IMG/VR virus record: IMGVR_UViG_3300032294_002964
Location: 1 to 64,000 of that record
Direction: 5' to 3' (one strand)
From: a virus
Length of the DNA stretch: 64,000 nucleotides
Part shown: one piece after another, positions 1,399 through 16,115 of the stretch
Layout of the letters: each line of letters begins with the position of its first letter
Numbering within the stretch: the stretch's first letter is position 1
Translations under genes and position numbers: made by a program
Notes under the pieces: model-generated
Databases searched by the model: none
Seen by the model: the letters and a program-made list of their open reading frames with translations, nothing else
What the model was told of the DNA's origin: nothing

Positions 1399-1403
1399 TA
1401 TAA

Positions 1404-1627: not shown

Positions 1628-1653
1628 AATTACAAACATATTTTTTTAAAACT

Positions 1654-1953: not shown

Positions 1954-2665
1954 TTATTACGCTCCAAAGTATGACTATAACACAGAGTATTCCTGTGAGA
2001 AATCTGGATGTCATGAAGAGGGTATTTGTAGATGTGGTCGTATTGACGATGCTTATGTTGAAAGTGTAGATCTAACATATCTTACAACCGAAATTTATGA
2101 CCAATTAATACCATCTGATAAAAAATCTAAAAAGAGAGATACTAGATTATCCGAATTATTGTATGGTGGTGAGATTGTTGATAAGTATTGCATTTATAGA
2201 ATATTATCTATCAACAAAGTATGGCAAACAGATTTATGGGAGGTGAACACAACTGGTGGATATTATGGTGATGAAATTGATAGTGTTACTTTAGATATTG
2301 TAACACTTAGTAAGGTATCTACACAATGTTCGAAGCTATTTGAACTTACTACACTAAAAGATAAATTATTTTATGTGATTGAATTAGAATATGGGTTTGT
2401 TTTAGATGAAATAAAAGACTGTGATTTTGAATTGATTACAATTTATAAGAATCATATTGACTTTAAAAAGCTAAATCAAAACCATATCAAGAATGTTAAA
2501 ATGGAAGACCTATCACACTATTGGGAGGAAAAGTATGACCTACCAAGAGGAATTGTTAGAGGCGAAATTGATAACTATAAAATAGTTGATGGATTTCATA
2601 GAATTATTGCTGCTAGTGACAAAAAGTCGTTTGAAGTTTTCAGAGTTATAAAAAATGAAAATTAA
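1940..2665 (+). CDS. hypothetical protein with ParB-like DGxHR motif
   Basis: The start is taken at ATG 1940, overlapping the upstream stop, rather than a longer frame from 1904 inside that gene. The N-terminal part has a Cys cluster (SCEKSGCHEEGICRCG, about residues 14-30) that could bind a metal. Near the C-terminus IVDGFHRIIAA resembles the DGxHR motif of ParB/sulfiredoxin-fold domains, which bind nucleotides or act on phosphates. The middle of the protein is not recognised. Function unknown; the ParB-like reading rests on one short motif. Confidence 0.8.
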   Translation: MLKNNYYAPKYDYNTEYSCEKSGCHEEGICRCGRIDDAYVESVDLTYLTTEIYDQLIPSDKKSKKRDTRLSELLYGGEIVDKYCIYRILSINKVWQTDLWEVNTTGGYYGDEIDSVTLDIVTLSKVSTQCSKLFELTTLKDKLFYVIELEYGFVLDEIKDCDFELITIYKNHIDFKKLNQNHIKNVKMEDLSHYWEEKYDLPRGIVRGEIDNYKIVDGFHRIIAASDKKSFEVFRVIKNEN

Positions 2666-2685
2666 ATCATATATATACACTCAGT

Positions 2686-3189
2686 ATGATGAGTGTGCCT
2701 TGCTCCAATTGCACAGCAAAATGTTGCAAAAATTATGATGTTTTTATTGACCACGAAGATCTGAATATATCAGATGATTTATCATTTATCAAAATTATTG
2801 AATATGATAAATCATATGGATATGTTCCTAAATTTAATCTTTGGAAAGACGGTAAAAAGAAAAAGTGGGTTCTTTGCTTAAACAATCCTGAGAAAGTTTG
2901 TCAGTTTCTTAAAGATGATAAGTGTTCTATTTATGATAAACGACCATTGATATGTAGAACTTATCCACATTATGTTGATGATGATAAGATCAAAACGATG
3001 AAGAATCTATGTCCAGTGAAATGGAATTTATCAGAACTTGAAAAAGTTGAACTAAGAATCAATTATGAAAAGCTTTTAGTAAATTTTTTAGCATTTGAAA
3101 CTATTTGTGACCAATGGAATAAAATCGTTACAAAAGAGGATAATTTAGAAAAATTTCTTATATTTGTAAAAAACTATCATTTTATATGA
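2686..3189 (+). CDS. YkgJ-type Fe/Zn-binding cysteine cluster protein
   Basis: 167 aa. CSNCTAKCC at the N-terminus (CxxCxxxCC) together with a later CxFLKDDKCSIYDKRPLICRTYPHY block is the hallmark of the YkgJ/UPF0153 family, thought to bind Fe or Zn through conserved cysteines. Biochemical role is not established for the family. ATG 2686 or 2689 could be the start. The 3' end overlaps the NUDIX gene by 4 bases (ATGA-type), so both are likely in one operon. Confidence 0.85.
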   Translation: MMSVPCSNCTAKCCKNYDVFIDHEDLNISDDLSFIKIIEYDKSYGYVPKFNLWKDGKKKKWVLCLNNPEKVCQFLKDDKCSIYDKRPLICRTYPHYVDDDKIKTMKNLCPVKWNLSELEKVELRINYEKLLVNFLAFETICDQWNKIVTKEDNLEKFLIFVKNYHFI

Positions 3190-3710
3190 TTATAGATCGT
3201 AAAAATAAATACAAAGGTTATCTCAATATTGACGAGATTACCTATAAAACAAAGTCTGGTAAAGAGGGTAAACGCGAATTAATGGTTCGTCAAAATGCGG
3301 TTGCCGCACTTCTTTACAACACAGAAACTGAGAAATATATTCTAATCTCTCAATGGCGACCAGGTTCAGCATCTGATATTATTGAAATTGTGGCTGGTAC
3401 ACTTGATAAACCAGGTGAAGATCCACGAGATGCAATGAAGCGTGAGATTGATGAAGAGGTTGGATACGAAACAGATTCAATCAAATTGATTGATGAATGT
3501 TATATGTCACCGGGTGGATCAAGTGAGGTAATCACTATTTACTTCTGTGAAGTATCTAAGAAGATTGGTGCTGGTGGTGGAGTTCCTGGTGAGCTTGAAG
3601 AGATTGACACGATTGAAATGGATCGTGAAGAGTTAATGACAACTCGATTTAAAGATGCAAAAACAATTATTGCCGTAAACTGGGCAAGATATAACCATAA
3701 TGTAAAATGA
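3186..3710 (+). CDS. NUDIX hydrolase, ADP-ribose pyrophosphatase-like
   Basis: 174 aa. The NUDIX box is visible as GTLDKPGEDPRDAMKREID followed by EEVGY, carrying the metal-binding REIDEE core with one extra residue between the first Gly and Glu. The upstream ISQWRPG and AGTLDKPGE context is that of the ADP-ribose/nucleoside-diphosphate-sugar pyrophosphatase subgroup, which splits ADP-ribose into AMP and ribose 5-phosphate. Substrate is inferred. It overlaps both neighbours by 4 bases. A link with the NAD+ module at 7.2-11.4 kb is plausible but not shown by the sequence. Confidence 0.88.
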   Translation: MIIDRKNKYKGYLNIDEITYKTKSGKEGKRELMVRQNAVAALLYNTETEKYILISQWRPGSASDIIEIVAGTLDKPGEDPRDAMKREIDEEVGYETDSIKLIDECYMSPGGSSEVITIYFCEVSKKIGAGGGVPGELEEIDTIEMDREELMTTRFKDAKTIIAVNWARYNHNVK

Positions 3711-4198
3711 ATTTAGATAAATTAAAAGAACCATATGTTATTATACTCATTGGTCCCCCTTTGAGTGGTAAGACTACTTGGATTCGTCAGAATTTTGAAC
3801 CTGAAACTTTCGAACTAATTTCGAGAGATCAAATTGTCATGGATGTTCACGGAGATGAAGACTACAATACTGCTTTTAAATCTGTTGACCAGAAAGAAGT
3901 AGATAGAATTCTTGTAGGTAAACTATCACAAGCCGGAAGGGAAGGTAAGAATGCTATTGTTGATATGACCCATATGAACTCTAAAAGGAGAAAGTTTAAT
4001 CTTTCTTTCTTTGGTAAAGACTATTACAAATTAGCAGTTATTTTTCCTATCTTAAAAGATGAAGAGTATATTCAGAGAGATAAGAAGAGAACAGAGGAAG
4101 AAAATAAAAGCATACCAATGCATGTGATAAAAAATATGATTTCATCATATCAATCAATTAAAAATGACGAAGGTTTTGACAAAGTAATTTCACTTTAA
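3707..4198 (+). CDS. P-loop kinase, polynucleotide-kinase-like (AAA_33 type)
   Basis: 163 aa. Walker A GPPLSGKTT near residue 17 and the following SRDQIVMD are typical of the small kinase group that includes the 5'-kinase domain of T4 PseT. A later DMTHMNSKRR and a basic lid-like region (QRDKKRTEE) fit this. It would phosphorylate a nucleic acid 5'-OH or another small substrate; the substrate cannot be told. No phosphatase domain is fused, unlike T4 PseT. A separate HAD protein is at 6036. Confidence 0.8.
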   Translation: MNLDKLKEPYVIILIGPPLSGKTTWIRQNFEPETFELISRDQIVMDVHGDEDYNTAFKSVDQKEVDRILVGKLSQAGREGKNAIVDMTHMNSKRRKFNLSFFGKDYYKLAVIFPILKDEEYIQRDKKRTEEENKSIPMHVIKNMISSYQSIKNDEGFDKVISL

Positions 4199-4209
4199 AA
4201 TTAACAAAT

Positions 4210-4500
4210 ATGAATTCAATAGAAAAAGTTATTAGACTAACAGAAGATGCTATTCTAGCGTCCGGTAAAAAATTCAAAGAAATTGATCCTGAATCGATAA
4301 AGGGATTTCTTAAAAATCAATATGGTTTAAATAAAGATCAAATCAATATTGTGATGGAACGACTATCAGAAATTTATTCTGGTAAAAAGTCACAAAAAAT
4401 TGTGAATGTCGATGTTCCGGTTCATACAGAGGACTCTTATGTTCCTAAGGTTAAGGAGGGTCGTAAAAGTGTCTTTGGAGAAATTAAGAAGATTGCTTAA
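4210..4500 (+). CDS. hypothetical protein
   Basis: 96 aa, mostly charged and probably helical, with no membrane segment. Not recognised. It is the last gene of the run from the RNase P RNA onward and is followed directly by a strong terminator. The C-terminus is basic (KEGRKSVFGEIKKIA). Confidence 0.75.
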   Translation: MNSIEKVIRLTEDAILASGKKFKEIDPESIKGFLKNQYGLNKDQINIVMERLSEIYSGKKSQKIVNVDVPVHTEDSYVPKVKEGRKSVFGEIKKIA

Positions 4501-4503
4501 TAA

Positions 4504-4530
4504 AAAAATCCCCTTATGGGGATTTTTTAT
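4504..4530 (+). terminator. intrinsic terminator
   Basis: AAAAATCCCC and GGGGATTTTT form a 10-bp perfect stem around TTAT, ending in a T-run. It closes the 1.6-4.5 kb operon. The longer reading of the next gene would start inside this hairpin, so that start is not used. Confidence 0.9.
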
Positions 4531-4546
4531 TTTAGGAAATTATCCT

Positions 4547-4554
4547 TATATTTG
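4547..4554 (+). promoter_or_regulatory. TAnnTTTG promoter box
   Basis: TATATTTG, the Bacteroidota -7 box, lies just after the terminator and 15 bases before ATG 4570. No clear TTTG -33 box is seen. Confidence 0.5.
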
Positions 4555-4569
4555 ATAAAAATACACACA

Positions 4570-4857
4570 ATGTTTAACTCTAATAATTTTCCAACTTTGA
4601 ATCGAGCTCTCTCACTTCTTATTGTATTCATCCTATTGATGATGGTACTTTTTAGTGGATTGTTTATATCACTTGCTATAGCTGCTGCGGCTATTGTACC
4701 ACTTACTTGGATTTGGGGTCTGTTGACTGGTCAGTCCTATGATCGAGTTTGTGATAACTCGGAAGTAATTTACAAACTTAACCAACTTGGAAAATGGACA
4801 ATTGCTATAGGATTTGCAATCTTATTGATATATCTTATCTATATAATTGTATTCTAA
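4570..4857 (+). CDS. small membrane protein
   Basis: 95 aa from ATG 4570, chosen because the upstream alternative begins within the terminator stem. Two strongly hydrophobic segments are seen, about residues 14-42 (LLIVFILLMMVLFSGLFISL region) and 74-95 (TIAIGFAILLIYLIYIIVF), with a short loop that carries Asp, Arg and Cys. Probably inner membrane. Small membrane proteins with this outline occur as holins, but nothing here proves that. Confidence 0.75.
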   Translation: MFNSNNFPTLNRALSLLIVFILLMMVLFSGLFISLAIAAAAIVPLTWIWGLLTGQSYDRVCDNSEVIYKLNQLGKWTIAIGFAILLIYLIYIIVF

Positions 4858-5004
4858 TTATCTACCCTGTCCTTTGTAAGCTTTCTTGTAGTTTTTCGAG
4901 CTTTTGTTTCTAGACTCTTTCTTTTTAGAGTGCTTTCCTAGTTTTTTCTTAGCCTTTTTTGTAAAAGATCTTACATTGCTTGTTGTTGTTGATTTTTTTG
5001 CCAT
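4858..5004 (-). CDS. small very basic protein
   Basis: 48 aa, starts with MAKKSTTTSNVRSF and ends SKNYKKAYKGQGR. About 40 percent Lys/Arg, no acidic run, and a tail that I recognise as common in small phage proteins of Bacteroidota and other hosts. It probably binds nucleic acid. The stop abuts the end of the convergent membrane-protein gene. No promoter was identified for it, but codon spacing and composition support coding. Confidence 0.75.
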   Translation of the reverse strand: MAKKSTTTSNVRSFTKKAKKKLGKHSKKKESRNKSSKNYKKAYKGQGR

Positions 5005-5034
5005 TTGTTCTTCTCATTATTTTTAGTATATATT

Positions 5035-5064
5035 TTTGTTTTTTAATAATTTTCCGTATATTTG
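5035..5064 (+). promoter_or_regulatory. Bacteroidota-type promoter (TTTG, 18 bp, TATATTTG)
   Basis: TTTG at 5035-5038 and TATATTTG at 5057-5064 are 18 bases apart, inside the consensus spacing of 17-23. ATG 5084 follows 20 bases later. This is the best-formed host-type promoter with a normal leader in the window. Confidence 0.7.
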
Positions 5065-5083
5065 TAGAACAAACAACGAAAAT

Positions 5084-5431
5084 ATGGACTTTTTAACATT
5101 CAATCCTAAAAATTTAGTTTTAGTAGATGGTGACTTTGTTAAATCAAATGATTTGGCTGATTTAATCTATGAGAACGATGGATCTTACTCAAATGATTGT
5201 CAATACATGACTTTCAAGTGTGGTGATATCACGATTGATGTTAATTATGAAATGAGTGTTTCAGGTTCTATTAATGAGGATTCTGGTGACTACTGGACAC
5301 CTCCAAGTTGTGATGTTGATATTGATGATGTTGATATTTATGTAACTGCTGTTTACATAAATGAGGATGAAGTTGAATTGACATCAGAGTTGAAGACTGT
5401 TTTTGAAAAAATTGTAGATAAAAATATATGA
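5084..5431 (+). CDS. hypothetical acidic protein
   Basis: 115 aa from ATG 5084; a longer frame from 5036 would overlap the promoter. The protein is strongly acidic, with DVDIDDVDIYV near the middle, and looks like a small beta-rich fold. Not recognised. It overlaps the next gene by 4 bases. Confidence 0.75.
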   Translation: MDFLTFNPKNLVLVDGDFVKSNDLADLIYENDGSYSNDCQYMTFKCGDITIDVNYEMSVSGSINEDSGDYWTPPSCDVDIDDVDIYVTAVYINEDEVELTSELKTVFEKIVDKNI

Positions 5432-6036
5432 TTCTCAAAAGAATACCAAAGTATTTACTAAAACTTATTGTAAAAAGTCCAATTAAATTCACTATGTTGT
5501 TAGTGGTTTTAACTCTTTTATATCCAATATTTCATTTGAATTATGATAAAAAAGAAAATGTTAAGGTTATTACACATTTTAAAAATGGTGTGTCAGAGTG
5601 TTATGTTGTTCCATCGTCCGGTGAAAATGATATGAGGATTATAAAATCTGAAAGCGAACTAACTATTAATAGTGATGGTACAATTGAAGTTGATGATGAA
5701 AATGTACCACTTATTCTATCTTGGATAGGATTTGTAATATTTTCAATTATTATAGTAATTTCATCTTTTCAAGATGATGATGATTATAATTGGTCATTTA
5801 GAGACAATTTTATTGAAGTTTTACATGATGATGTTACTTGTGAGATGGATCAAATTGGCAGTGAACAAATTTACTACTACATACTTGATGGTAAATTGAT
5901 ACTTAAATCAAAGTCTCATAAGTCTCGTATCCACGATGAGGTTGAGAGATATTTTGAATCTCCAAAGATTTTCATTGATTACGAGGGAACTAAACAAAAA
6001 AGGAGAAGTAATAAACTTGATGAAATATTAGGATAA
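5428..6036 (+). CDS. membrane protein of unknown function
   Basis: 202 aa. A basic N-terminus is followed by a membrane segment (about 22-38, TMLLVVLTLLYPIF), a loop of about 50 residues, and a second segment (about 90-110, LILSWIGFVIFSIIIVIS). The C-terminal 90 residues are soluble and charged, with DDDDY directly after the membrane. Not recognised. TAATG overlap with the following HAD gene indicates one operon. Confidence 0.75.
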   Translation: MILKRIPKYLLKLIVKSPIKFTMLLVVLTLLYPIFHLNYDKKENVKVITHFKNGVSECYVVPSSGENDMRIIKSESELTINSDGTIEVDDENVPLILSWIGFVIFSIIIVISSFQDDDDYNWSFRDNFIEVLHDDVTCEMDQIGSEQIYYYILDGKLILKSKSHKSRIHDEVERYFESPKIFIDYEGTKQKRRSNKLDEILG

Positions 6037-6428
6037 TGAAAGTATCATTTGATTTTGATGGTTGCTTAGGAGATAATAAATTTGTCCAGATGATGTGTAA
6101 AATGTTCATATCATCTGGACACGATGTTTTTATTATAACAAGTCGTGATCCTCAGATGTCCAATAATGATGTTTTTAGAGTATCGGATTTGTTAGGTATA
6201 AAAAGAGAAAATATCATTATGACTAATGGTACTCTCAAAGTACATGCATTTATTCAAAATCAAATTGATATACACTTTGATAACTCATACGATGAAGTAG
6301 TTGCTATAAATGACGAATTTACAAAGGGTCCTAATATATTTCAGAAGAATGAATCTATGCCAGCAATACTTGTGAATTTTGATACAGAGGAAATGGGATA
6401 TATTCATAATTTTATTCTTAACAAATGA
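6036..6428 (+). CDS. HAD-family phosphatase
   Basis: 130 aa. FDFDGCLGD at the N-terminus is HAD motif I (DxDG), IITSR is motif II, and HFDNSYDEV is a plausible motif IV region. Small phage HAD proteins of this size act as 5'-nucleotidases or polynucleotide 3'-phosphatases. The substrate is not evident. It might supply the phosphatase half of a split T4 PseT, the kinase half being at 3707. That is inference only. Confidence 0.8.
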   Translation: MKVSFDFDGCLGDNKFVQMMCKMFISSGHDVFIITSRDPQMSNNDVFRVSDLLGIKRENIIMTNGTLKVHAFIQNQIDIHFDNSYDEVVAINDEFTKGPNIFQKNESMPAILVNFDTEEMGYIHNFILNK

Positions 6429-6814
6429 TTTGTCCTAATTGTGGAAATAGTAATCAATGTCCTTGTACTAATTGTGACCCAGATAGGACAAAACCAAATA
6501 AGTATATTTGGGTAGACACTGAGCATGGTGTTGTTCAGTGTTGTTTCTGCAATTATCAATTTAATGAAGGTGAATCACTTAATTATGAGTGGGATTTAAT
6601 GATTAAAACATATAAAGAGAGGTTAGATGATAAACTTTGTGCATTTTGGTTTGAATCAAAAAATAAAAGTGACCTCTATATATCACATGGTTTGGATGAA
6701 TTTGCCTTTAGAATGGCTTTCAGAGAACATTACAGTGTAGATCCAAGGAACCTAAAAATAGAAGAATGGTTAGTGATTAAAAGAGATTATAAATTATTCA
6801 AACTAATTGAATAA
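6425..6814 (+). CDS. zinc-ribbon protein
   Basis: 129 aa. The N-terminus holds CPNCGNSNQCPCTNC and later CCFC, enough cysteines for one or two zinc sites. A conserved-looking YEWDLMIKTYKERL follows. It recalls Lar-type and other small phage zinc-ribbon proteins, but the C-terminal half is not recognised. Overlaps the HAD gene by 4 bases. Confidence 0.75.
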   Translation: MICPNCGNSNQCPCTNCDPDRTKPNKYIWVDTEHGVVQCCFCNYQFNEGESLNYEWDLMIKTYKERLDDKLCAFWFESKNKSDLYISHGLDEFAFRMAFREHYSVDPRNLKIEEWLVIKRDYKLFKLIE

Positions 6815-6821
6815 TTTTTTG

Positions 6822-6829
6822 TATATTTG
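6822..6829 (+). promoter_or_regulatory. TAnnTTTG promoter box before the thioesterase/NAD run
   Basis: TATATTTG ends 19 bases before ATG 6849. It is the only good box in front of the thioesterase-TonB receptor-PnuC-NadR genes. No -33 TTTG at the ideal distance. Confidence 0.5.
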
Positions 6830-6848
6830 AATACTAAAATATAAAGTT

Positions 6849-7217
6849 ATGAACTTTCACGCAAGAAAACTGGTTAAACCAGAAGACCTTAATCCACGAG
6901 GTACTCTTTTTGGTGGACGACTTCTTGAATGGATTGACGAAGAAGCCGCAATCTATGCAATGTGTCAATTAGACACAAAAGATATTGTGACAAAATTGAT
7001 TTCCGAAGTTAATTTTGTATCGCCTGCTTATCCAGGTGATGTAATTAAAATTGGTGTTGAACCAACCAATTTTGGTCGAACTTCACTTACTGTTAAGGTA
7101 ACAGTTGTAAATAAAGATACCGGTAATGTGATTGTTCAAATTGATAAAATGGTATTTGTATCTCTTGATAAGGAAGGAAAACCATTTCCACACGGCAAAA
7201 CAGAACAGAAATTTTAA
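6849..7217 (+). CDS. acyl-CoA thioesterase, hotdog fold
   Basis: 122 aa. GTLFGGRLLEWIDEEAAIYA is the helix and catalytic Asp region of the YciA/BFIT-like acyl-CoA hydrolases, and VNFVSPAYPGDVI matches their conserved strand. It would cleave acyl-CoA to free acid and CoA. Length is usual for a single hotdog domain. It precedes the TonB receptor by 9 bases and appears to be the first gene of that operon. Why a phage would carry it is unclear; lipid or membrane remodelling is one guess. Confidence 0.88.
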   Translation: MNFHARKLVKPEDLNPRGTLFGGRLLEWIDEEAAIYAMCQLDTKDIVTKLISEVNFVSPAYPGDVIKIGVEPTNFGRTSLTVKVTVVNKDTGNVIVQIDKMVFVSLDKEGKPFPHGKTEQKF

Positions 7218-7226
7218 TTAATAAAC

Positions 7227-9464
7227 ATGAAATACATATTTACATTTATTTTAACACTGATAACATTTTCAGTTTTTTCACAAATTGATACCACTGTACT
7301 TCCACTAAGTACAGATAGTCTCAAACTATTAACTCTGGTTGATTCTTCTTCATTACCGGCTATTGAGATTGTTGGTATTCGTAGTAATCCTACTGATCCG
7401 ATTACTACAACAAGGATTAATATGGATTCAGTTAGATTCACTTATCAAGGTGGTGATCCATTTTTTACCATTAACCAATGGTCTCCTAATGTTCTTACAC
7501 AATCAGATAATGGTTCTCAATATGGATATTCATATATGAGAATTCGCGGATTTGATCAAACTAAAATTAATTTTACACTTAATGGAATCCCATTAAATGA
7601 AATGGAAGACCAAGGTATCTACTTTAGTAATATGCCTGGTTTTTTAAATAACATTTCTAATATACAAGTTACTCGTGGTATTGGCACATCTCAATATGGA
7701 ACAACATCTATTGGTGGTTCCGTTAATATGGAGACGATATCTCCACTACAACGGTCTTTAAGGTTTAATCTTAATCAAGGTTCTTTTAATAATAAACAAA
7801 CATCCATTATCTACAATAGTGGATTTTTAGGTAAGTCTAAATTTGCTTTTAGCTCAAATGTATCTTATTTAGCTACTGATGGATTTAGAGATAATACTCA
7901 ATCTGAAGGATTTAATTACTTTGGACAAGTTGGATATTTCTCCCGAAAAAATACGGTAAGACTATATGGATTTACTGGTATGGCAAAGAATAATCTTTCT
8001 TGGCAACCCGTTTCTCGAAATGGATATAATGTGTATTCATACGGATTTGATACACTTGGTAATTATACAACATTCGATAATGTTAACTACTTTCAAAATG
8101 GTACAAATCAAAATTATAGAACTAATGCTAATGGTAATATAGAACGTGATCGATTCAATCAAAATTTTGTGGCACTTAATTGGATAAATTATGCAAAATC
8201 AAACTTGAAGTATAACTCCTCACTTTATTTTATAAATATTAATGGATCTTACAATACAAGAGAACCTTATCATCTCAGAGGACTGGTTGTAGACAATGAA
8301 ATTATTGGTGATGAATTTTATCCTGAAATATTCAAATATAGTTTGAACTCATACCAATTTGGTGGTATGTCTAATATGGTTTATAATTGGGGTGGATTTA
8401 CATTTAATACAGGCCTTAACTATAATAATTATAGACGAGAGCATAGAAGAGGATTTTACGACAGACCAATGTCTTTTGATAGTACTCAATACTATGTTAA
8501 TACTGGATTTAAAAATGATCTTATTACATACTCAAAAATTAACTATCAGTGTAATAAGTTTAACTATTTTATTGATCTTCAATATCGAAATGTCACATTT
8601 AAATATTTAGATAATAAGTCTGGATTTGAAAAAGATTATACTGCTGAAATTTTATATCATCAATGGAATTTCTTTAACCCCAAAGCTGGTGTAAAGTTAA
8701 TTGATAGTGACTATGAGGCATGGATATCATTTGGCAAAACAAGTAGAGAAGTAACACGAACTGATCTATTTTATGGATATGATGATGTCGATATAAATAA
8801 TGGTGTTGTTTCTAATCCTCTACAGGGTAATATTACACTGAATTTTACACCAGAACAGATTTATGATGCTGAAATTGGACATAAACTAAAGTTCCGTAAT
8901 TTAGACCTATCATATAACTTTTATTATATGTTAACTCAAAATGAGAGACTTAATAACGGTACCTATAATGAAATAGGTATGCCACTAAAGTCTATTATGG
9001 ATAGAGTTGAAAGAAAAGGATTTGAACTAGAATCTAACTACAATTATAAAAAACTAAAAGTATCGGTAAATGGATCTTACTCATTGAATAATATATTCAC
9101 AGATAGTCCAGTGATTACTGTACCGGCGAATACACCAACTTATATGTTAAATCATTCAGTTTCATACGGTAGAAAATGGATGGTTTCTGTAAATGGTAGT
9201 TTGATGTCGAGAATTTACTTAGATAACACAAATGATAAAAACTATTCAACACCACAGTATTACATAATGAACTTTATTGGTTCATATAATTGTGATAGAG
9301 TTAGACTATCATTCACTATCAATAACATCTTGAATAAGAGATACTTTTTACCTGGTGGAATTATCAACAATTCAACACCAAATGGTATTGATAAGATTGC
9401 TGGATTTTATCCAGGTATGACACGAAGCTACTTTGTAAACGCTACATTTGACCTATGGAAATAA
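7227..9464 (+). CDS. TonB-dependent outer-membrane receptor
   Basis: 745 aa with a signal peptide (MKYIFTFILTLITFSVFSQ). The plug domain spans about 45-170: SYMRIRGFDQTKINFTLNGIPLNEMEDQG and VTRGIGTSQYGTTSIGGSVNM are classic plug motifs. The rest is an aromatic beta barrel ending in a Phe-rich last strand (YFVNATFDLWK), as required for outer-membrane insertion. Receptors of this type import scarce nutrients using TonB-ExbBD of the host. Its stop overlaps the PnuC start (ATGGAAATAA), which strongly suggests that its substrate is the one PnuC takes, nicotinamide riboside. A full-length copy in a phage-like context is unusual. Confidence 0.93.
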   Translation: MKYIFTFILTLITFSVFSQIDTTVLPLSTDSLKLLTLVDSSSLPAIEIVGIRSNPTDPITTTRINMDSVRFTYQGGDPFFTINQWSPNVLTQSDNGSQYGYSYMRIRGFDQTKINFTLNGIPLNEMEDQGIYFSNMPGFLNNISNIQVTRGIGTSQYGTTSIGGSVNMETISPLQRSLRFNLNQGSFNNKQTSIIYNSGFLGKSKFAFSSNVSYLATDGFRDNTQSEGFNYFGQVGYFSRKNTVRLYGFTGMAKNNLSWQPVSRNGYNVYSYGFDTLGNYTTFDNVNYFQNGTNQNYRTNANGNIERDRFNQNFVALNWINYAKSNLKYNSSLYFININGSYNTREPYHLRGLVVDNEIIGDEFYPEIFKYSLNSYQFGGMSNMVYNWGGFTFNTGLNYNNYRREHRRGFYDRPMSFDSTQYYVNTGFKNDLITYSKINYQCNKFNYFIDLQYRNVTFKYLDNKSGFEKDYTAEILYHQWNFFNPKAGVKLIDSDYEAWISFGKTSREVTRTDLFYGYDDVDINNGVVSNPLQGNITLNFTPEQIYDAEIGHKLKFRNLDLSYNFYYMLTQNERLNNGTYNEIGMPLKSIMDRVERKGFELESNYNYKKLKVSVNGSYSLNNIFTDSPVITVPANTPTYMLNHSVSYGRKWMVSVNGSLMSRIYLDNTNDKNYSTPQYYIMNFIGSYNCDRVRLSFTINNILNKRYFLPGGIINNSTPNGIDKIAGFYPGMTRSYFVNATFDLWK

Positions 9465-9991
9465 TAGCAGTTATATTTAGTCTTTTATCAGTGTGGCTAA
9501 CATCAAAGAATAATATTTGGTGTTGGCCGATTGGTATTGTAGGAGTTTTAGGATTTGCTTATCTTTTTTATACGAAAGGTGAGTGGGGTAATTTAGTTCT
9601 ACAGTTTATATTTTTATCACAATCAATAGATGGTTGGATTAATTGGAATAAACCAAGTACAAAAGTATCTAAGATAAGGAAAAATGAGTTGTATAGTCAT
9701 ATAATGGGTCTAATTGTATTAGGTACTGTTATATCAATAATAACAACAATTTCAGGAAGTACTCATGTTGTATTAGATAGCATAACAACTACTCTAAGTA
9801 TTGCGGGGATGTTCTTACTAATACACAAAAACTTAGAGGCTTGGTATCTTTGGATAGTGGCTGATATTTTATATGTGGTTTTATTTTTAAAAAATGAACT
9901 TTACCTATCATCTTTAGTATATTTTGTGTTTACTATACTAGCATATTATGGATATAAAAACTGGAAAAAACAATTAAAAAATGGGATTTAA
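9455..9991 (+). CDS. pnuC: PnuC-family nicotinamide riboside transporter
   Basis: 178 aa, about seven hydrophobic segments. WCWPIGIVGVLGFAYLFY and QSIDGWINW match the conserved Trp-rich core of PnuC. Family members import nicotinamide riboside; close relatives (PnuT, PnuX) take thiamine or riboflavin. The choice of nicotinamide riboside rests on NadR four genes down, with no thiamine gene or obvious TPP riboswitch in front. It overlaps the receptor gene by 10 bases and the next gene by 11. Confidence 0.9.
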   Translation: MEIIAVIFSLLSVWLTSKNNIWCWPIGIVGVLGFAYLFYTKGEWGNLVLQFIFLSQSIDGWINWNKPSTKVSKIRKNELYSHIMGLIVLGTVISIITTISGSTHVVLDSITTTLSIAGMFLLIHKNLEAWYLWIVADILYVVLFLKNELYLSSLVYFVFTILAYYGYKNWKKQLKNGI

Positions 9992-10223
9992 AAAGAAAAT
10001 TAAAGGACTTGATGAAGATCAAATTAAACTCTTTGTTAAAAGATCAATTGTTGATGGAACATCAACTAAAATTTTAAAATCAAAGACTCTAAAAGAGTCT
10101 GAATATTTACAACAAGTTGTTTTAGAGGCAACTGATGAAATTGGTGACCTAATAGATTCTTTAAAAGAAAGATTTGACTCACCAAAAGAGGTATTAAAAT
10201 ATTTAAATAAAAGTTTAAAATAA
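9981..10223 (+). CDS. small hypothetical protein
   Basis: 80 aa, highly charged and probably all helical, with Lys-rich N-terminus. Not recognised. It overlaps pnuC by 11 bases and the next gene by 1 (TAATG), so it is translated within the NAD operon. The opposite-strand frame here is a shadow. Confidence 0.75.
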   Translation: MGFKKKIKGLDEDQIKLFVKRSIVDGTSTKILKSKTLKESEYLQQVVLEATDEIGDLIDSLKERFDSPKEVLKYLNKSLK

Positions 10224-10444
10224 TGAAAGTAAACTATCCACAACCTGGTAGAAAATACAATCACTATAAAGGTGGGCTATATCAGGTACTATTTTTATCA
10301 AAACAAACTGAAACTGGTGAAGTTTTAGTAAACTATCAATCTTTACTATTTGGATCTTACTTCTCAAGACCTTTAGATTCTTGGAATGAACTAACTCCAG
10401 ATGGTGAAGTTAGATTTATTCTTATAGAAGATGAAAAGGTTTAA
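10223..10444 (+). CDS. DUF1653-type protein
   Basis: 73 aa. YNHYKGGLYQVLFLSKQTET, VNYQSLLFG and SRPLDSWNE give the usual DUF1653 pattern (hyKG..Y.v, vvYq, RP...F.e). This small beta-rich domain is widespread in bacteria and phages and has no established role. It lies between pnuC and nadR and overlaps nadR by 14 bases. Confidence 0.8.
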   Translation: MKVNYPQPGRKYNHYKGGLYQVLFLSKQTETGEVLVNYQSLLFGSYFSRPLDSWNELTPDGEVRFILIEDEKV

Positions 10445-11429
10445 AAATGGTTTAGTATTAGGTAAAATGTATCCTTTTACAAAGGGTCACCAGTATCTTA
10501 TTGATACTGCGATATCTAATGCTGAAACAGTTCATGTTATCATCACACATAACCTTTCACAATCTATTCCAGGTGAAGTGAGATATAATGCAATAAAAGA
10601 GACATATAAAAATAATCATAATGTAAAAGTCTATTCAATATCGGACGAAGGTATTCCAGCTTATGATTATGAGTGTGAGACATTAGAAGAGTTTTACTCA
10701 TACTGGGTACCACTTGTATATTCACAAGTTGAATACTTAGATGTCGTATTTACATCTGAAAATTACGGAGAAGACTTTGCTAAATATTTAGGGATTGAAC
10801 ATTTCTTAGTTGATAAAGATAGAACTCATGTTCCAATATCTGGCACTCTTGTTAGAGAAGATCCACATAAACATTGGGACTATATTGCAGATTCTATGAA
10901 ACCATATTTTGTTAAAAGAATTGCTATCATGGGACCAGAGTCTGTTGGTAAGTCAACATTAGCTAAAAATGTTTCTAATACTTTAGGAACTAATTTTGTA
11001 CCAGAGTATGGAAGATTAGTTTATGAAATTAATAATTCAGTGACTATTGATGATTTCATTCCAATCTCAATAGGTCGTCAAGAAATTGAAGACTGGATGA
11101 TAAAACACTCAAAAAAATTCATAATTTGTGATACAGAGGATATAACGACATATCTTTTTTCAAAGATGTATTGTCCTGATGAATATAAAAAAGTCGAACC
11201 ATACTTCTTAAATTTGCTTGAATCGAAGTCTAAATATGATCTTTACATCTTATTAAAACCAGATTGTGAAGGTGTTCAAGATGGAACAAGAAACTTTTTA
11301 GAAGAAAGATGGGATCACTATGAAGTAATAAAATCTGAATTAATCAATCGAGGTTGTAATTTCGTAGAGATCGGTGGAGATTGGATTGAAAGGAGTAAAA
11401 AATCATTAAGACTAATCAATGATTTATAA
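10431..11429 (+). CDS. nadR: NadR-like NMN adenylyltransferase / ribosylnicotinamide kinase
   Basis: 332 aa with two domains. Residues about 1-165 are the nucleotidyltransferase: GKMYPFTKGHQYLI gives the GxxxPxxxGH site and ISGTLVR the second signature. Residues about 168-332 are the kinase: GPESVGKST is Walker A, and CDTEDITTYLF follows. Together they phosphorylate nicotinamide riboside to NMN and adenylate it to NAD+. The DNA-binding domain of enterobacterial NadR is absent, as in many other lineages. With PnuC and the receptor this makes a full route from outside the cell to NAD+. Confidence 0.93.
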   Translation: MKRFKNGLVLGKMYPFTKGHQYLIDTAISNAETVHVIITHNLSQSIPGEVRYNAIKETYKNNHNVKVYSISDEGIPAYDYECETLEEFYSYWVPLVYSQVEYLDVVFTSENYGEDFAKYLGIEHFLVDKDRTHVPISGTLVREDPHKHWDYIADSMKPYFVKRIAIMGPESVGKSTLAKNVSNTLGTNFVPEYGRLVYEINNSVTIDDFIPISIGRQEIEDWMIKHSKKFIICDTEDITTYLFSKMYCPDEYKKVEPYFLNLLESKSKYDLYILLKPDCEGVQDGTRNFLEERWDHYEVIKSELINRGCNFVEIGGDWIERSKKSLRLINDL

Positions 11430-11703
11430 AGATAAAATAAAATGCTTTTTCGGATTTCATGATTGGGAATATTCTACTTGGGAAAGTGAAAAGTACTCCA
11501 TCACTACAAAATCTGATATGAGTCATATTAATGAATTACTTGAAAGACAATATCACTATCCATCCAGGTTTTGTCAATGTTGCTATAAAAAACAAAGAAG
11601 ACATATAGTTGACCTTGGTAGGACTATCTTATGGAGAGATACCGATAAATTAACATTAAAAGAAATAAGACAAAAAAAATTAAAAAAAATATTAAATGAG
11701 TAG
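11419..11703 (+). CDS. small protein with CFFGFHDW motif and Cys pair
   Basis: 94 aa. The N-terminal KCFFGFHDWEYS and later RFCQCCYKKQRR recall small phage and bacterial proteins with a GxHxW...RxCxxCxxxQ layout, possibly metal binding. The C-terminus is very Lys-rich. It overlaps nadR by 11 bases and the next gene by 8. Confidence 0.75.
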   Translation: MIYKDKIKCFFGFHDWEYSTWESEKYSITTKSDMSHINELLERQYHYPSRFCQCCYKKQRRHIVDLGRTILWRDTDKLTLKEIRQKKLKKILNE

Positions 11704-12097
11704 CGAAGAACTTTTTATAATTATGGTATTTTTTATATTTATGTTCTCATTTTTATTCTTATTGAGATATTTTGTAGTTAAAAATAGTGCTTCAGCATCT
11801 TACATCACAAAAAGAAGATGGAAGAATATTAACTGGAGAGTAATTTTCAAATATTGGACAATTTGTCAAGGATTTATGATCATTTCCAGAATAGGTGAGA
11901 TTTGGGAAAATATCTACCTTATTATTTTAACACCAATACTTTTAATTACATTCTTACTTTTTTTCTATCTTACACATAATGTCGGTCCAGTTAAAGAGTA
12001 TGGTGAAGAACAAATATTAGATCAAGAAGATTTTCAGAACTATGAAAAGTCGTTTAATCGTCAAAAGAAAATAGATAAAATCATCAAGAGATTTTAA
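11696..12097 (+). CDS. membrane protein of unknown function
   Basis: 133 aa. Hydrophobic segments at about 5-27 (FIIMVFFIFMFSFLFLL) and 75-95 (YLIILTPILLITFLLFF), and possibly a weaker one at 50-65. A basic loop (KRRWKNINWR) follows the first. The C-terminal 35 residues are charged. Not recognised. Last gene of the NAD operon before a late-type promoter motif. Confidence 0.75.
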   Translation: MSSEELFIIMVFFIFMFSFLFLLRYFVVKNSASASYITKRRWKNINWRVIFKYWTICQGFMIISRIGEIWENIYLIILTPILLITFLLFFYLTHNVGPVKEYGEEQILDQEDFQNYEKSFNRQKKIDKIIKRF

Positions 12098-12105
12098 TAT
12101 ATAAA
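12094..12105 (+). promoter_or_regulatory. TTAATATATAAA motif (candidate late promoter)
   Basis: TTAATATATAAA, the exact 12-base form of the recurrent motif, ends 18 bases before ATG 12124. Confidence 0.55.
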
Positions 12106-12123
12106 AGAAATTATCACCTCAGT

Positions 12124-12420
12124 ATGGGACAATTACATGACAGTCAACAAGAAGAACTTTTAGCAAAATTAGCAGGTTTTTATAGAAGAAGATATCCTAA
12201 TCAGTCAGATTTTGAAAAAAAATTCAACGATGCTGCTGAAGATCTAATTGATACTGGTGATATTGAAAGAACAGTATATTTAACTTTTTGCACTGAGAAT
12301 GATATCGAACCTAAGATTAAAAAGAAATCATCATCTTCTTCATCAAGTAGTTCATCTAGCTCATACTACGATAGTGGATGTGGAGGTGGAGGTAGAGGAT
12401 ATAGCAGACCATCTTGTTAA
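12124..12420 (+). CDS. small protein with poly-Ser and Gly/Cys-rich tail
   Basis: 98 aa. The first 65 residues are a charged helical domain (MGQLHDSQQEELLAKLAGFYRR start). After KKK comes a run of 12 serines, YYDSGCGGGGRGYSRPSC. The codons of the serine run alternate between TCA, TCT, AGT and AGC, so it is kept as protein, not as a DNA repeat. The tail resembles disordered, cysteine-ended display tails. Function unknown. Confidence 0.8.
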   Translation: MGQLHDSQQEELLAKLAGFYRRRYPNQSDFEKKFNDAAEDLIDTGDIERTVYLTFCTENDIEPKIKKKSSSSSSSSSSSSYYDSGCGGGGRGYSRPSC

Positions 12421-12431
12421 TAAATAAATTT

Positions 12432-13334
12432 ATGTTAGAGAGTATAGATCTTTTTGGTAAAAACATACCATTAAAAACTCATGTCTGTCACTTATTTGGC
12501 CAAGATGCTCAAGAGGTTGAAGAACCGTATGTTCATCTTTATATAAGAACAAAATTTTGTAATGCTAAGTGTCAGTTCTGCACTTATGCTGACGATGCTA
12601 ATAAATTTAATGAAAAGAGACTTATAGAGATTTTTAATGAAGTAACTTCTAAAATTAAAATTTCTAAGGTCGCTGTATCTGGTGGTGAGCCAACTTTATA
12701 TTGGGATAACTTTCAAACAATCACACATCTTGCAAAAGAATGGGCACCTAAAGCTGAGCTATCTATGAATACTGATGGTTTTAGATGGAGACAATTTTTA
12801 GAAGATCCAATTTCTAAATTATACGACTATATTCAATTATCGAGACATCACTATGATGATAAATTAAATGATGAAATTTTTAGAACTAAAACACCAACTT
12901 CAGAAGAGATAAAAGATATTGCTGAGAATTATGCAAGAGATATTCATCAGATTCAATTTAGATGTAATCTAATTAAAGGATATATTGATAATAAAGAAGA
13001 GGTTTTTAAATTCTTAGACTGGGCAAACTCAGTTAGTATTAATGATGTTGGACTTGTATCTTTAATGCCGGTTAACGATTACTCAAAAGAAAAATTTATC
13101 TATTTTCATATTAAAGAGTTAATAGGTGATAACTTTTTATTAACTAAAACTTGGAATAGATATGGTGGTGGTTGTGAGTGTTTTAACTATGTTTATATGC
13201 CACCAGAAGATCAATTTAGAAGACCAATTCGTGTATATCATAAAAACACATTTAAACCATCTGATGTAAGAGAAACATTAGTATTTGATGGTTATAATTT
13301 GAGATTAGGATTTGATGGTGAGATTATTTATTAA
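12432..13334 (+). CDS. radical SAM enzyme
   Basis: 300 aa from ATG 12432. RTKFCNAKCQFCTYAD holds the CxxxCxxC cluster (Cys43, Cys47, Cys50) for the 4Fe-4S centre, and AVSGGEPTLYW is the SAM-binding GGEP motif. It would generate a 5'-deoxyadenosyl radical. Substrate is unknown: the general outline is near 7-carboxy-deazaguanine synthase and peptide-modifying enzymes, but no partner gene is seen nearby. No SPASM-type C-terminal Cys cluster; there are only two further cysteines (GGCECF). Confidence 0.85.
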   Translation: MLESIDLFGKNIPLKTHVCHLFGQDAQEVEEPYVHLYIRTKFCNAKCQFCTYADDANKFNEKRLIEIFNEVTSKIKISKVAVSGGEPTLYWDNFQTITHLAKEWAPKAELSMNTDGFRWRQFLEDPISKLYDYIQLSRHHYDDKLNDEIFRTKTPTSEEIKDIAENYARDIHQIQFRCNLIKGYIDNKEEVFKFLDWANSVSINDVGLVSLMPVNDYSKEKFIYFHIKELIGDNFLLTKTWNRYGGGCECFNYVYMPPEDQFRRPIRVYHKNTFKPSDVRETLVFDGYNLRLGFDGEIIY

Positions 13335-13606
13335 ACCTCATCCATAAATAATTCTTCTAAGTAATCAATTACTTCCATATATCCATCATAAAGACCACAC
13401 TTCTCATCTAAGTAGGCAGCAATTTCGTGAGACTTCTGTTCAACAGACAAACCATCATTATTAGCGATTTCTGAGAATCTTGATTTCAAATCTTCACGAC
13501 CATCATATAGATCAAAATCTTTATCTGATAACCATTTTGTGAATTTATCCCAGTGTGATTCATAACCGTGTGAATCGAACTCCTCGTATATTCTTAAATA
13601 TTTCAT
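13331..13606 (-). CDS. small acidic protein with CTS-like N-terminus
   Basis: 91 aa, starts MKYLRIYEEFDSHG. The first eight residues fit the recurrent N-terminal peptide of this window with I6-Y7-E8 as a possible cleavage site. The rest is acidic and helical (YLDEKCG, YLEELFMDEV). Not recognised. Overlaps the end of the converging radical SAM gene by 4 bases; 2 bases from the next gene upstream. Confidence 0.8.
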   Translation of the reverse strand: MKYLRIYEEFDSHGYESHWDKFTKWLSDKDFDLYDGREDLKSRFSEIANNDGLSVEQKSHEIAAYLDEKCGLYDGYMEVIDYLEELFMDEV

Positions 13607-13608
13607 AG

Positions 13609-13938
13609 TTAGTAAAACTTTATTTCATTTTTAAAACTACCTATAGTTTCTTTATCATCTATTAATCTAACGGATAAAACATTTAATTTTGGTTTAGGCT
13701 CAAATGCTTCAACCTTTTCATACCATAAATCAATAAAATCATCTTGAGCATTCTGCTCGCTATTTGAAGATATTAAATACTCATAGTTTTGAGATGTCCA
13801 TTTTTTTGAATATTTACTCTGGTACCAATCTTCTTCTTTAGCTTCAAAATTAGTAACATTATATGTTACTAAATACTTTGAAAGTTTTTTACTTTTAAAG
13901 AAGGAGAAAAGTCCTTCAAATGTTTTTAAATGTTTCAT
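13609..13938 (-). CDS. hypothetical protein with CTS-like N-terminus
   Basis: 109 aa, starts MKHLKTFEGLFSFFKSKK. The first seven residues equal the shared MKHLKT[FY] peptide, but the [IL]-x-E site is not clear (TFE at 6-8). The remainder is a mixed alpha/beta protein with a DDFIDLWYEKVEAF segment. Not recognised. Confidence 0.75.
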   Translation of the reverse strand: MKHLKTFEGLFSFFKSKKLSKYLVTYNVTNFEAKEEDWYQSKYSKKWTSQNYEYLISSNSEQNAQDDFIDLWYEKVEAFEPKPKLNVLSVRLIDDKETIGSFKNEIKFY

Positions 13939-13956
13939 AATTAATCTTCACTTTCT

Positions 13957-14595
13957 TCACTTTTCTGACTGAGCTAATGATATAAATGCTGGTATGAAAA
14001 TTATTAATCTTTTATCAATACTACTATTTATATTAACCTCCCAAGAGTCTCCTATGGATAGATATGCTTTACTCATTTTAATCTGGCCACCACTCATATC
14101 TGATATATCTACATTTGTAGTAAAGAAATCTAGTTTATCTGATTTACCAATCACTTTTCCACTAGCATCTTTAATCGAATATTTGGAATATATAGAAAAC
14201 ATTGATTCAATTATTTCTTGTTCTACACTTCCTATTTTATTACCACTCTCATCGGATATATTTATAACAGTTCCTAAACTAAAAACCTCTTGTTTAGCGG
14301 TTGCTTTTAACTTTCCACTCTGATCAAAATATTCAAATTTATTTCCAAAACTAAGAGTTCTTTGTTCTACTCTACCACCGGTTGATATTTGCATATCCAT
14401 TCCGATGGCAAGTAACTCTTGATCCATCGTAAAAGAATTACTATTTCTCGATTCTTCACTTTTAGTTTTATCTTGGTAATTTGGTGATGGGTCACATCCA
14501 ACCAATCCTGTAGCAAGTGCACCTCCGACAAGAGCACCTTTCCAATTTACTTCTTCATCTATTGAATATGACTTATATGTTTTTAAATGCTTCAT
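13957..14595 (-). CDS. LURP-one/tubby-like domain protein with CTS-like N-terminus and lipobox-like segment
   Basis: 212 aa. The N-terminus MKHLKTYKSYSIDE fits the shared peptide with I12-D13-E14. Directly after it comes a hydrophobic Gly/Ala stretch ending in GLVGC (about residues 20-33), lipobox-like. From about 75 to 195 repeated strands such as FEYFDQSGKLKATAKQE and YSIKDASGKVIGKSDK are typical of LURP-one-related domains, which resemble phospholipid scramblases. A packaged protein that becomes membrane-anchored after injection is one possible reading. The role is unknown. Confidence 0.8.
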   Translation of the reverse strand: MKHLKTYKSYSIDEEVNWKGALVGGALATGLVGCDPSPNYQDKTKSEESRNSNSFTMDQELLAIGMDMQISTGGRVEQRTLSFGNKFEYFDQSGKLKATAKQEVFSLGTVINISDESGNKIGSVEQEIIESMFSIYSKYSIKDASGKVIGKSDKLDFFTTNVDISDMSGGQIKMSKAYLSIGDSWEVNINSSIDKRLIIFIPAFISLAQSEK

Positions 14596-14602
14596 TTTTT
14601 AA

Positions 14603-14959
14603 TTATCTTTTATATGGTTCAACTGAAAGAACCTCAACTTTTGAATCATCTTTAACTGCAACTATACAATCACAATCTACCTTACCACATTCCATTTCTG
14701 ATTTTTGAACATCGATATTAGATGAATCACATTTAGCTGTGATTAAATACAATTCACTTCCTTTATTTTCTAAGAAGTCTGGATTAACTTTTTCTCTATC
14801 AGAGAAATAAAACTCACCTGGCTCAGACAAATCAACAACTGAATGAGATGTTAGTCTATAAAGCATAACCTCACCTGTTAGTTCTGCAGCCTTACATAAA
14901 GAAGGAGATTCAGTATTTTCATTAATTTTAAAATTTTTAAATGAATTGATAATTTTCAT
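14603..14959 (-). CDS. small protein with CTS-like N-terminus
   Basis: 118 aa from ATG 14959, chosen over an upstream ATG at 15001 because MKIINSFKNFKINENTES is the shared N-terminal peptide (I12-N13-E14, then N). The body has six cysteines (including CGKVDCDC) and no membrane segment. Not recognised. It is the first gene of a four-gene run on this strand. Confidence 0.78.
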   Translation of the reverse strand: MKIINSFKNFKINENTESPSLCKAAELTGEVMLYRLTSHSVVDLSEPGEFYFSDREKVNPDFLENKGSELYLITAKCDSSNIDVQKSEMECGKVDCDCIVAVKDDSKVEVLSVEPYKR

Positions 14960-14977
14960 ATTATGATTTAGTTTTCT

Positions 14978-14988
14978 GTATATATTAA
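14978..14988 (-). promoter_or_regulatory. TTAATATATAC motif (candidate late promoter)
   Basis: Read on the minus strand as TTAATATATAC, 18 bases upstream of start 14959. Confidence 0.5.
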
Positions 14989-15050
14989 AAAAATGTTCCA
15001 ATAAATGAACTTTGATAAAAATAATAGTATAACATATATGTTGTTTGTTT

Positions 15051-15130
15051 GTGAGTTCAAAAACATTATTTTGTTATCTTCTTCTCAAAGAAATTGAACT
15101 CACGTAGAAAACCCCTTTTAAAGGGGTTTT
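15051..15130 (+). ncRNA. possible structured small RNA or leader before the MgtC-like gene
   Basis: GTGAGTTCAA (15051-15060) pairs perfectly over 10 bp with TTGAACTCAC (15094-15103), enclosing 33 bases. A strong terminator follows after four bases. The pair of stems would make a compact RNA of about 80-90 nt, or an attenuator. A 12-bp palindrome (AACATATATGTT, 15031-15042) lies just before it. No known family recognised. Confidence 0.45.
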
Positions 15131-15135
15131 TTATT
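15108..15135 (+). terminator. intrinsic terminator
   Basis: AAAACCCCTTT and AAAGGGGTTTT form an 11-bp stem with loop TA, then a T-run. It lies 20 bases before the MgtC-like start, so it ends an upstream RNA or controls read-through. Confidence 0.85.
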
Positions 15136-15153
15136 TTTATAAATAAAATAGAT

Positions 15154-15609
15154 ATGAACTTTGATCCAGAATTTTTACCACTAATTACATTACTATTACC
15201 AAAGGTCCTAATTGCCACTATATGTGGATTAATAATTGGATATGACCGTGAAATTAAACAAAAAGTTGCCGGTATTAGAACCAATATATTAATATGTGTT
15301 GGTTGTACAATACTAACTGCAACATCTTTCTATTTAGCAAAAGATAATCCTGCTATTGATCCAACACGAATCATCGGTCAAATTATTACCGGAATCGGAT
15401 TTTTAGGAGCAGGTGTTATTATGAAGAACGATGATAAAATTGTTGGAGTTACAACTGCTGCTTTTATCTGGGTTATTAGTTCTATAGGAATTTTAATAGC
15501 GTGTATAGATTCTTTTTCCACTCCTATAATTTTAACTATTGGATTATTAATAATTAGCCGTATATTTGAAAAAGTAGAAACATATATAAAAACTAAAAAT
15601 AAAGAATGA
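15154..15609 (+). CDS. MgtC/SapB-family membrane protein
   Basis: 151 aa from ATG 15154; a longer frame from 15094 would include the terminator and is rejected. About four hydrophobic segments; LIIGYDREIKQKVAGIRTNILICVG and ITGIGFLGAGVIMKNDD with TTAAFIWV are the conserved MgtC blocks. Family members modulate Mg2+ homeostasis and F-type ATPase in bacteria. The usual soluble C-terminal domain is missing, as in short SapB-type members. Overlaps the CYTH gene by 4 bases. Confidence 0.88.
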   Translation: MNFDPEFLPLITLLLPKVLIATICGLIIGYDREIKQKVAGIRTNILICVGCTILTATSFYLAKDNPAIDPTRIIGQIITGIGFLGAGVIMKNDDKIVGVTTAAFIWVISSIGILIACIDSFSTPIILTIGLLIISRIFEKVETYIKTKNKE

Positions 15610-16115
15610 AACTTGAAATCGAGCGCAAATTTCTCTTGAAATCTTTACCAGAGATTGAACCAGAACAAATCGTTGAGATTGAACAATTTTATTTTAAAAA
15701 TCAAAGTGGAGTCTGGGAAAGAGCTCGAAGTTGGTTTTCATCAAATGGTGAGAAACGGTATATTCATACTGTAAAAAAATCTGTTTCTAAAAGTGTCAAT
15801 ATTGAAGATGAGCACGACTTGTCTGAAAAACAATTTAAGTCATTTAGAGATAAGTGTTATAAAACTCCTAATGAGTCTAAGTATATAAGAAAAACTAGAC
15901 ACATTTACAAAGATGGTGATCTTAAATGGGAAATTGACGAATTCAATAATGACTATAAGTTGATTATTGCTGAGATTGAAATTCCAACAAAAGATTATGA
16001 AGTTATAATTCCGGACTACCTAAAAGAATTAGTATTGATTGAAGTAACTGGAATGAAACCATTTAGTAATCGTAGTCTATCTTTAAAAATAAAAAAACTA
16101 GCGAATGTACAATAA
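15606..16115 (+). CDS. CYTH domain (triphosphate tunnel) protein
   Basis: 169 aa. LEIERKFLL at the N-terminus is the ExExK signature of the CYTH/TTM fold; later strands carry the alternating charged residues (KWEIDEFN, LIIAEIEIP) that line the tunnel. Members hydrolyse tripolyphosphate or make cyclic nucleotides. Size fits single-domain bacterial enzymes that cleave inorganic triphosphate. Activity not certain. Overlaps the next gene by 11 bases. Confidence 0.88.
   Translation: MKLEIERKFLLKSLPEIEPEQIVEIEQFYFKNQSGVWERARSWFSSNGEKRYIHTVKKSVSKSVNIEDEHDLSEKQFKSFRDKCYKTPNESKYIRKTRHIYKDGDLKWEIDEFNNDYKLIIAEIEIPTKDYEVIIPDYLKELVLIEVTGMKPFSNRSLSLKIKKLANVQ

Follow-up and report, generated by a model that had tools for sequence, protein, structure and literature searches.

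A probable trans-envelope nicotinamide riboside salvage cassette (TonB-dependent receptor, PnuC and NadR) in huge phages

In Bacteroides thetaiotaomicron the thiamine operon OMthi-PnuT-Tnr3 provides a genetic precedent for an outer-membrane receptor, a Pnu transporter and a kinase working as a unit (PMC5613172). The chemistry of NadR, the uptake of nicotinamide riboside (NR) by PnuC and substrate trapping have also been described (PMC7221760), and phages of the KVP40 type and Atu_ph07 use PnuC and NadR to convert NR to nicotinamide adenine dinucleotide (NAD) (PMC6102473). Another phage pathway, NARP1 (Adps/Namat), rebuilds NAD from internal ADP-ribose (ADPR) and nicotinamide (PMC12774641). TonB-dependent receptors (TBDTs) of the phages LR745206 and Mar_Mega_1 were reported as SusC, a carbohydrate uptake protein (PMC9723777). 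Here we analyze a cassette of three genes, coding for a TonB-dependent outer-membrane receptor, PnuC and NadR, within a 64,000-base stretch of viral DNA (the window) that corresponds to bases 1-64000 of the 92,077-base IMG/VR record IMGVR_UViG_3300032294_002964.

The closest counterpart of the cassette is a chromosomal receptor-PnuC-NadR operon of Bacteroidota (Flammeovirga L046, Zobellia L085, Niastella L101 and Dysgonomonas L080; L numbers denote the compared loci), which resembles the window in gene content, order, overlap and receptor clade. The window differs in residing in a huge phage, in having two small genes before nadR, in its more diverged receptor and in the absence of NrtR, which lies upstream in some of the host operons. 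KVP40-type and Atu_ph07 salvage shares the route from NR to NAD, but is devoid of an outer-membrane receptor of this kind. The thiamine operon shares the logic of receptor, Pnu transporter and trapping kinase, yet has a different kinase (thiamine pyrophosphokinase, TPK), a thiamine pyrophosphate (TPP) riboswitch and a receptor from a separate clade. By analogy, the layout of the cassette is a copy of the thiamine logic, with a receptor predicted at the outer membrane, a Pnu facilitator at the inner membrane and a kinase as the trap. NARP1 raises NAD in infected cells, as predicted for the window cassette, although the latter would import an external precursor; no Adps/Namat match was seen among the window genes scanned, in which no search was aimed at Adps/Namat. 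Computation establishes the identity, intactness, order and conservation of the three genes, purifying selection on them in related phages and the kinship of the receptor. We consider it very likely that they represent a phage-borne copy of the Bacteroidota-type NR salvage operon providing NAD from NR across the whole envelope; the substrate, expression, import and benefit are what we infer.

The receptor (positions 7227-9464, + strand, 745 aa) is full length, consisting of a signal helix, a plug and a barrel of the 22-stranded type, and both Pfam domains scored above the cut-off (TonB_dep_Rec_b-barrel, 3.5e-15; Plug, 5.9e-10). Its AlphaFold2 model, based on a 53-sequence alignment, shows a plug-and-barrel structure (predicted local distance difference test, pLDDT, 84.5; predicted template modelling score, pTM, 0.85) with the N-terminal linker modelled as disorder. 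The best PDB match of the model is the small-molecule receptor PqqU/YncD (E 1e-38; fold match probability 1.00), while the remaining matches are mainly siderophore receptors, the likeness being one of fold only. PnuC (9455-9991, +, 178 aa) matches PF04973 (152.9 bits, 1.1e-44) and TIGR01528 (84.6 bits, 8e-24), both over the curated cut-offs, and aligns to the Neisseria mucosa PnuC structure 4QTN. NadR (10431-11429, +, 332 aa) is bifunctional, with an N-terminal nicotinamide mononucleotide (NMN) adenylyltransferase (NMNAT) and a C-terminal ribosylnicotinamide kinase (RNK), and is without a helix-turn-helix domain. It matches the NadR equivalog-domain model TIGR01526 with E 1.8e-66, its bit score being below the curated cut-off, and the phage NadR family phrog_3462 with 3.5e-72, and it aligns end to end with the solved NadR structures 8x7f, 1lw7 and 9x6f. 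Loss of the NadR active site, raised in an earlier sequence-only reading of this DNA as an objection to a working module, is not the case: both the NMNAT motifs (TxGH, SGTxVR) and the RNK motifs (Walker A GPESVGKS, DTEDITT, DGTR) are retained, and the T for H in TxGH also occurs in 9x6f. Judging by these features, all three proteins look functional.

To place the receptor among cellular homologs, we used the 80 best bacterial relatives from 84,980 genomes, mainly Bacteroidota and Gemmatimonadota. Pnu and/or NadR/RNK are encoded within 6 kb in 69 of these 80 loci, including 37 with Pnu and NadR and 15 with Pnu and a kinase-only NadR. The PnuC start usually coincides with the receptor stop, and NrtR, a regulator of NAD genes, lies upstream in about nine host loci. 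TPK is absent beside the receptor in all 80 bacterial and all 23 viral loci as well as among the neighboring genes in the window. Thiamine receptors were gathered separately, via TPK, PnuT and L007. Receptors L146-L175 (40-48% like the fecal thiamine receptor) were left out, as their 1.5-kb flanks hide the context; in their place larger regions were used, 60 of them surrounding Pnu genes and 20 surrounding weaker receptor matches.

Phylogenetic analysis separates the two kinds of receptors. In the 129-row tree a single clade (SH-aLRT, the Shimodaira-Hasegawa-like approximate likelihood ratio test, 99) unites the 27 phage rows, without exception, with every NadR-linked row, membership being partly by design because the bacterial set was chosen by likeness to phage receptors without use of gene context. 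Two other clades stand apart from it, the L007-type clade and the main thiamine clade, each with a support of 100. The split between NadR-linked and thiamine receptors recurs in a 48-row tree (SH-aLRT 99.9). In a careful 44-row tree, with THI5-linked relatives included, the full-NadR-linked rows and all phage rows, and only these, make up one clade (ultrafast bootstrap, UFBoot, 93; SH-aLRT 92), outside which both the THI5-linked and the kinase-only rows fall. Forcing the window receptor into the main thiamine clade is rejected by the approximately unbiased (AU) test (p-AU 0.025). Of 52 alignment columns that tell NadR-linked receptors from those of the thiamine type, 26 hold the NadR-type residue in the window receptor, compared with 0-13% for the thiamine types. 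A TPP riboswitch is present just upstream of the receptor at 12 of 14 thiamine-type loci, but at none of ten NadR-linked bacterial loci, none of ten phage loci and nowhere in L002-L004; likewise, none was detected at E<=1 in positions 1-20000 of the window. The comparison with PnuC-linked host receptors that the sequence-only reading had proposed therefore comes out in its favor, the receptor grouping with PnuC/NadR-linked host receptors and not with thiamine receptors.

The same reading knew of no other phage that unites such a receptor with an NAD module, but the union is not unique to this phage. Receptor, PnuC and NadR occur in the same order in the huge phages LR756502, LR745206 and LR756501/503 (642, 635 and 735 kb), and a split cassette is found in Lak phages. 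The cassettes of LR756502 and LR745206 are without insert genes, in contrast to the window with its two small genes before nadR, and their NadRs are 52-59% identical to that of the window. In LR756501 receptor and PnuC are separated by extra genes, and NAPRT, NadE, PncA and TonB are present in addition: its locus (L003 7049-15522, LR756501.1) holds NAPRT, NadE, receptor, PnuC, NadR and PncA within ~8.5 kb, whereas the complete TonB-like protein (266 aa, TonB_C E 4.9e-23, Pro-rich linker; L314 6221-7021, near 470 kb) is encoded ~42 kb away from the receptor. When viral contigs were scanned with nothing but a four-phage receptor alignment (a single-sequence receptor query returned nothing), 23 loci were obtained, 21 of which encode NadR, or at least its kinase part, no more than 6 kb away; PnuC is also present in 15 of the 21. 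Receptor matches in the phage collection are confined to huge and Lak phages and small fecal contigs, while PnuC and NadR themselves occur in many phages. For diverged pairs of related phages the ratio of nonsynonymous to synonymous substitution rates (dN/dS) is ~0.04-0.17 for receptor, PnuC and NadR, and hence the three genes are under purifying selection in related phages.

Receptor-NadR pairs without a nearby PnuC were observed as well, both in bacteria (L063, L066, L068, L074, L084 and L097, from Hymenobacter, Paraflavitalea, Niastella and Chryseobacterium) and in the viral contig fragments L023, L024, L025 and L028. The latter have receptor and NadR (three also NAPRT) and no PnuC anywhere in the record; another inner-membrane carrier or host PnuC may serve there. 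L025 also has a weak macro-domain match.

Given these data, the proposed working of the cassette would be as follows. Once inserted into the outer membrane of the host, the receptor would draw on TonB-ExbBD for energy and bring NR, or a closely related product of NAD breakdown, into the periplasm; NR would then cross the inner membrane through PnuC by facilitated diffusion. NadR would phosphorylate it to NMN, trapping NMN inside, and would adenylate NMN to NAD. If NadR is the trap, one would expect the cargo to be NR (PMC7221760). The infected cell would thereby gain an NAD supply independent of host biosynthesis, which may help to replicate a huge genome, to counterbalance defence that consumes NAD, or both. 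The sequence-only reading described the module as complete. The three genes are intact, but this term is too strong: neither TonB nor ExbB turned up in the 92-kb fragment, so that energy transduction by the host would be needed. ExbB was likewise missing from the phages searched, which would leave even LR756501, with its own TonB, dependent on host ExbBD.

The reading as NR salvage is supported by the intact families and motifs, the Pnu/NadR linkage, the trees, the diagnostic columns, the absence of a TPP riboswitch and the dN/dS values, by NAPRT, NadE and PncA surrounding the cassette in the 735-kb phage, and by NrtR upstream in several host loci. A number of observations weigh against it. 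The WxxW motif and D108 of PnuC are common to the NR and thiamine types, and these residues do not separate the two. Of the 80 host loci, 17 pair the receptor with NadR in the absence of PnuC and 11 have neither. The placement of the window inside the NadR-linked clade rests on support of 93/92, not 100, and its receptor is the most diverged one (end branch 1.5-1.7), being 33-35% identical to the LR745206/LR756502 receptors versus 53-59% for NadR. This gap points to either faster evolution of the receptor or a receptor swap, and because the receptor is unusually diverged while NadR is not, its loops or even its ligand may have shifted. In addition, the window has no close relative that would allow selection tests on the window itself. 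Finally, the wider clade has at its base the receptors L105, L106 and L112, whose genes adjoin NMT1/THI5-like ones. This hints that a lineage of receptors for thiamine precursors neighbors the NR lineage, and thiamine-type specificity is for this reason likely the outgroup state. This basal position, together with Bacteroidota thiamine operons of the same layout (receptor-PnuT-TPK; L007, PMC5613172), lends some weight to the idea that the receptor takes up thiamine or one of its precursors and is just a neighbor of the NAD genes. We regard this as improbable in view of the missing TPK and TPP riboswitch, the AU test result, the NadR-type diagnostic residues and the tight NadR linkage in phages and hosts alike. 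Even less probable is the published annotation of the LR745206/Mar_Mega_1 receptor as a SusC-like carbohydrate receptor (PMC9723777), which is strongly disfavored for the window protein: only plug and barrel are present, with neither the SusC N-terminal (carboxypeptidase-like) domain nor a SusD neighbor, the length of 745 aa is below that of many Zobellia receptor paralogs (~1000 aa or more), and the gene is linked to PnuC/NadR. It might also be argued that the receptor acts at the surface in some other way (masking or swapping of phage receptors, superinfection exclusion) and that PnuC/NadR are an independent pair of auxiliary metabolic genes. TBDTs are common phage receptors, the fold matches include FhuA bound to T5 pb5 and to the exclusion lipoprotein Llp, and in the lineage of the window divergence is faster for the receptor than for NadR. 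However, operons made up of the same genes are found in hosts outside any phage context, and the receptor is co-inherited with NadR in distant phages, making such a role about as improbable as thiamine import.

Another consideration is whether the contig is bacterial or chimeric, in which case the cassette would be a plain host operon. The operon is indeed of bacterial origin and common in hosts, but we give this explanation hardly any credence. The same record encodes a gp32-like single-stranded DNA-binding protein, a phrog_562 tail-fibre attachment/RNA-ligase family protein and T4-type topoisomerase-like ORFs (open reading frames), as well as a large protein with relatives only in the huge-phage genomes LR756502, LR745206, LR756504, LR756501/503 and LR756500. 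The window NadR groups with the NadRs of LR756502, LR745206 and two IMG/VR contigs (SH-aLRT 99), and the radical-SAM gene downstream of it is 69% identical to its counterpart downstream of the LR745206 NadR. Terminase was not found in the 92-kb record, which its fragment status allows for, but is present in 10 of 28 carrier records, including LR756502, LR745206 and LR756501. By its gene content, then, the record is a fragment of a huge-phage genome. A different question is what the same biochemistry would be for, namely whether NR taken up from the surroundings makes good the NAD that host NADase systems (Thoeris, DSR and others) consume. That phages can restore NAD in the face of NAD-depleting immunity is established (NARP1, PMC12774641), a supply from outside the cell would be of use once the NAD of the host has run out, and the cassette is carried by very diverse huge phages. 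On the other hand, many phages carry PnuC and NadR that are described as no more than NAD salvage genes (for KVP40, as cited in PMC9723777), the module itself has no match to defence or anti-defence families, NR uptake works only where NR is available, and the sequence does not separate an anti-NADase role from plain NAD supply. We therefore see counter-defence as a reasonable possibility that falls short of being probable. Somewhat more tentative is the broader proposal that huge Bacteroidota phages re-equip the host envelope with their own TonB-dependent vitamin receptor, one 735-kb phage also with a TonB protein, so that NAD drained by immunity is replaced from extracellular NR.

Within the window, receptor, PnuC and NadR overlap or touch with two small genes between them, as the sequence-only reading had noted and as the ORF coordinates and family matches confirm. 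The intervening genes code for an 80-aa protein of unassigned function without Pfam, NCBIfam or PHROG match (9981-10223, +) and a 73-aa DUF1653 protein (10223-10444, +; PF07866, 2.2e-12). The overlaps amount to 10 bp (receptor/PnuC), 11 bp (PnuC/80-aa ORF) and 14 bp (73-aa ORF/NadR), and the two small ORFs touch, so that all junctions from receptor to NadR overlap by 1-14 bp. The module does not start at position 6849, as previously assumed: positions 6849-7217 (+) encode an unrelated hotdog-fold acyl-CoA thioesterase-like protein (PF03061, 4HBT, 1e-16; phrog_18230), 9 bp upstream of the receptor and absent from related cassettes. As the related loci compared hold no relatives of the thioesterase or of either small gene, we consider all three mere neighbors, and the 80-aa and DUF1653 ORFs are, on this comparison, local insertions outside the conserved cassette.

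Several other features of these phages were observed. In at least five phage loci a small protein with a Ser/Cys/Gly-rich C-terminal tail adjoins a radical-SAM enzyme (window 12124-13334, +; L004 13489-14659; L014 9488-10661; L002 13941-15227; L018 9813-11095). The best NCBIfam match of the enzyme is HxsC, with a weak viperin likeness, and the two may possibly be a RiPP-like (ribosomally synthesized and post-translationally modified peptide) precursor/maturase pair beside the NAD cassette. The window further encodes a phage protein of 880 aa (57417-60059, -) in which six PKD repeats are combined with a CHU_C domain, a type IX secretion signal. This signal suggests export by the type IX secretion system of the host, which is accordingly likely to belong to Bacteroidota. 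Also phage-encoded are a Clp-type AAA+ ATPase (17083-19194), an IMP dehydrogenase-like protein (44753-45727) and a full-length DnaK/HSP70 (55396-57267; E 8e-251). An RNase P RNA-like element (1404-1627, +) matches Rfam RNaseP_arch over the whole model length (40.7 bits, E 4e-10, below the gathering score), carries the GAGGAA and AACAGAA core motifs and is absent from the L002-L004 stretches searched; an RNase P RNA encoded by a phage, if true, would be unusual.

Taken together, the cassette is best read, on the strength of its genes, as trans-envelope NR salvage, a variant of phage NAD salvage. The pieces are known, whereas their combination and the NAD reading appear to be new, the window being one of many carriers; we found no open-access paper joining phage, TonB-dependent receptor, PnuC and NadR, although a subscription paper could have such. 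Phage NAD salvage has so far been treated as a matter of the cytoplasm and the inner membrane. If this conserved cassette starts at the outer membrane, these viruses would alter what the infected cell takes up, and phage success and NADase immunity would be tied to environmental vitamin-B3 precursors. Should the envelope indeed be re-equipped in this way, the outcome of NADase defence would depend on nutrients outside the cell. The NR assignment would also provide an entire clade of unassigned Bacteroidota receptors with a ligand that can be tested, and would correct the 'SusC' label on megaphage receptors.

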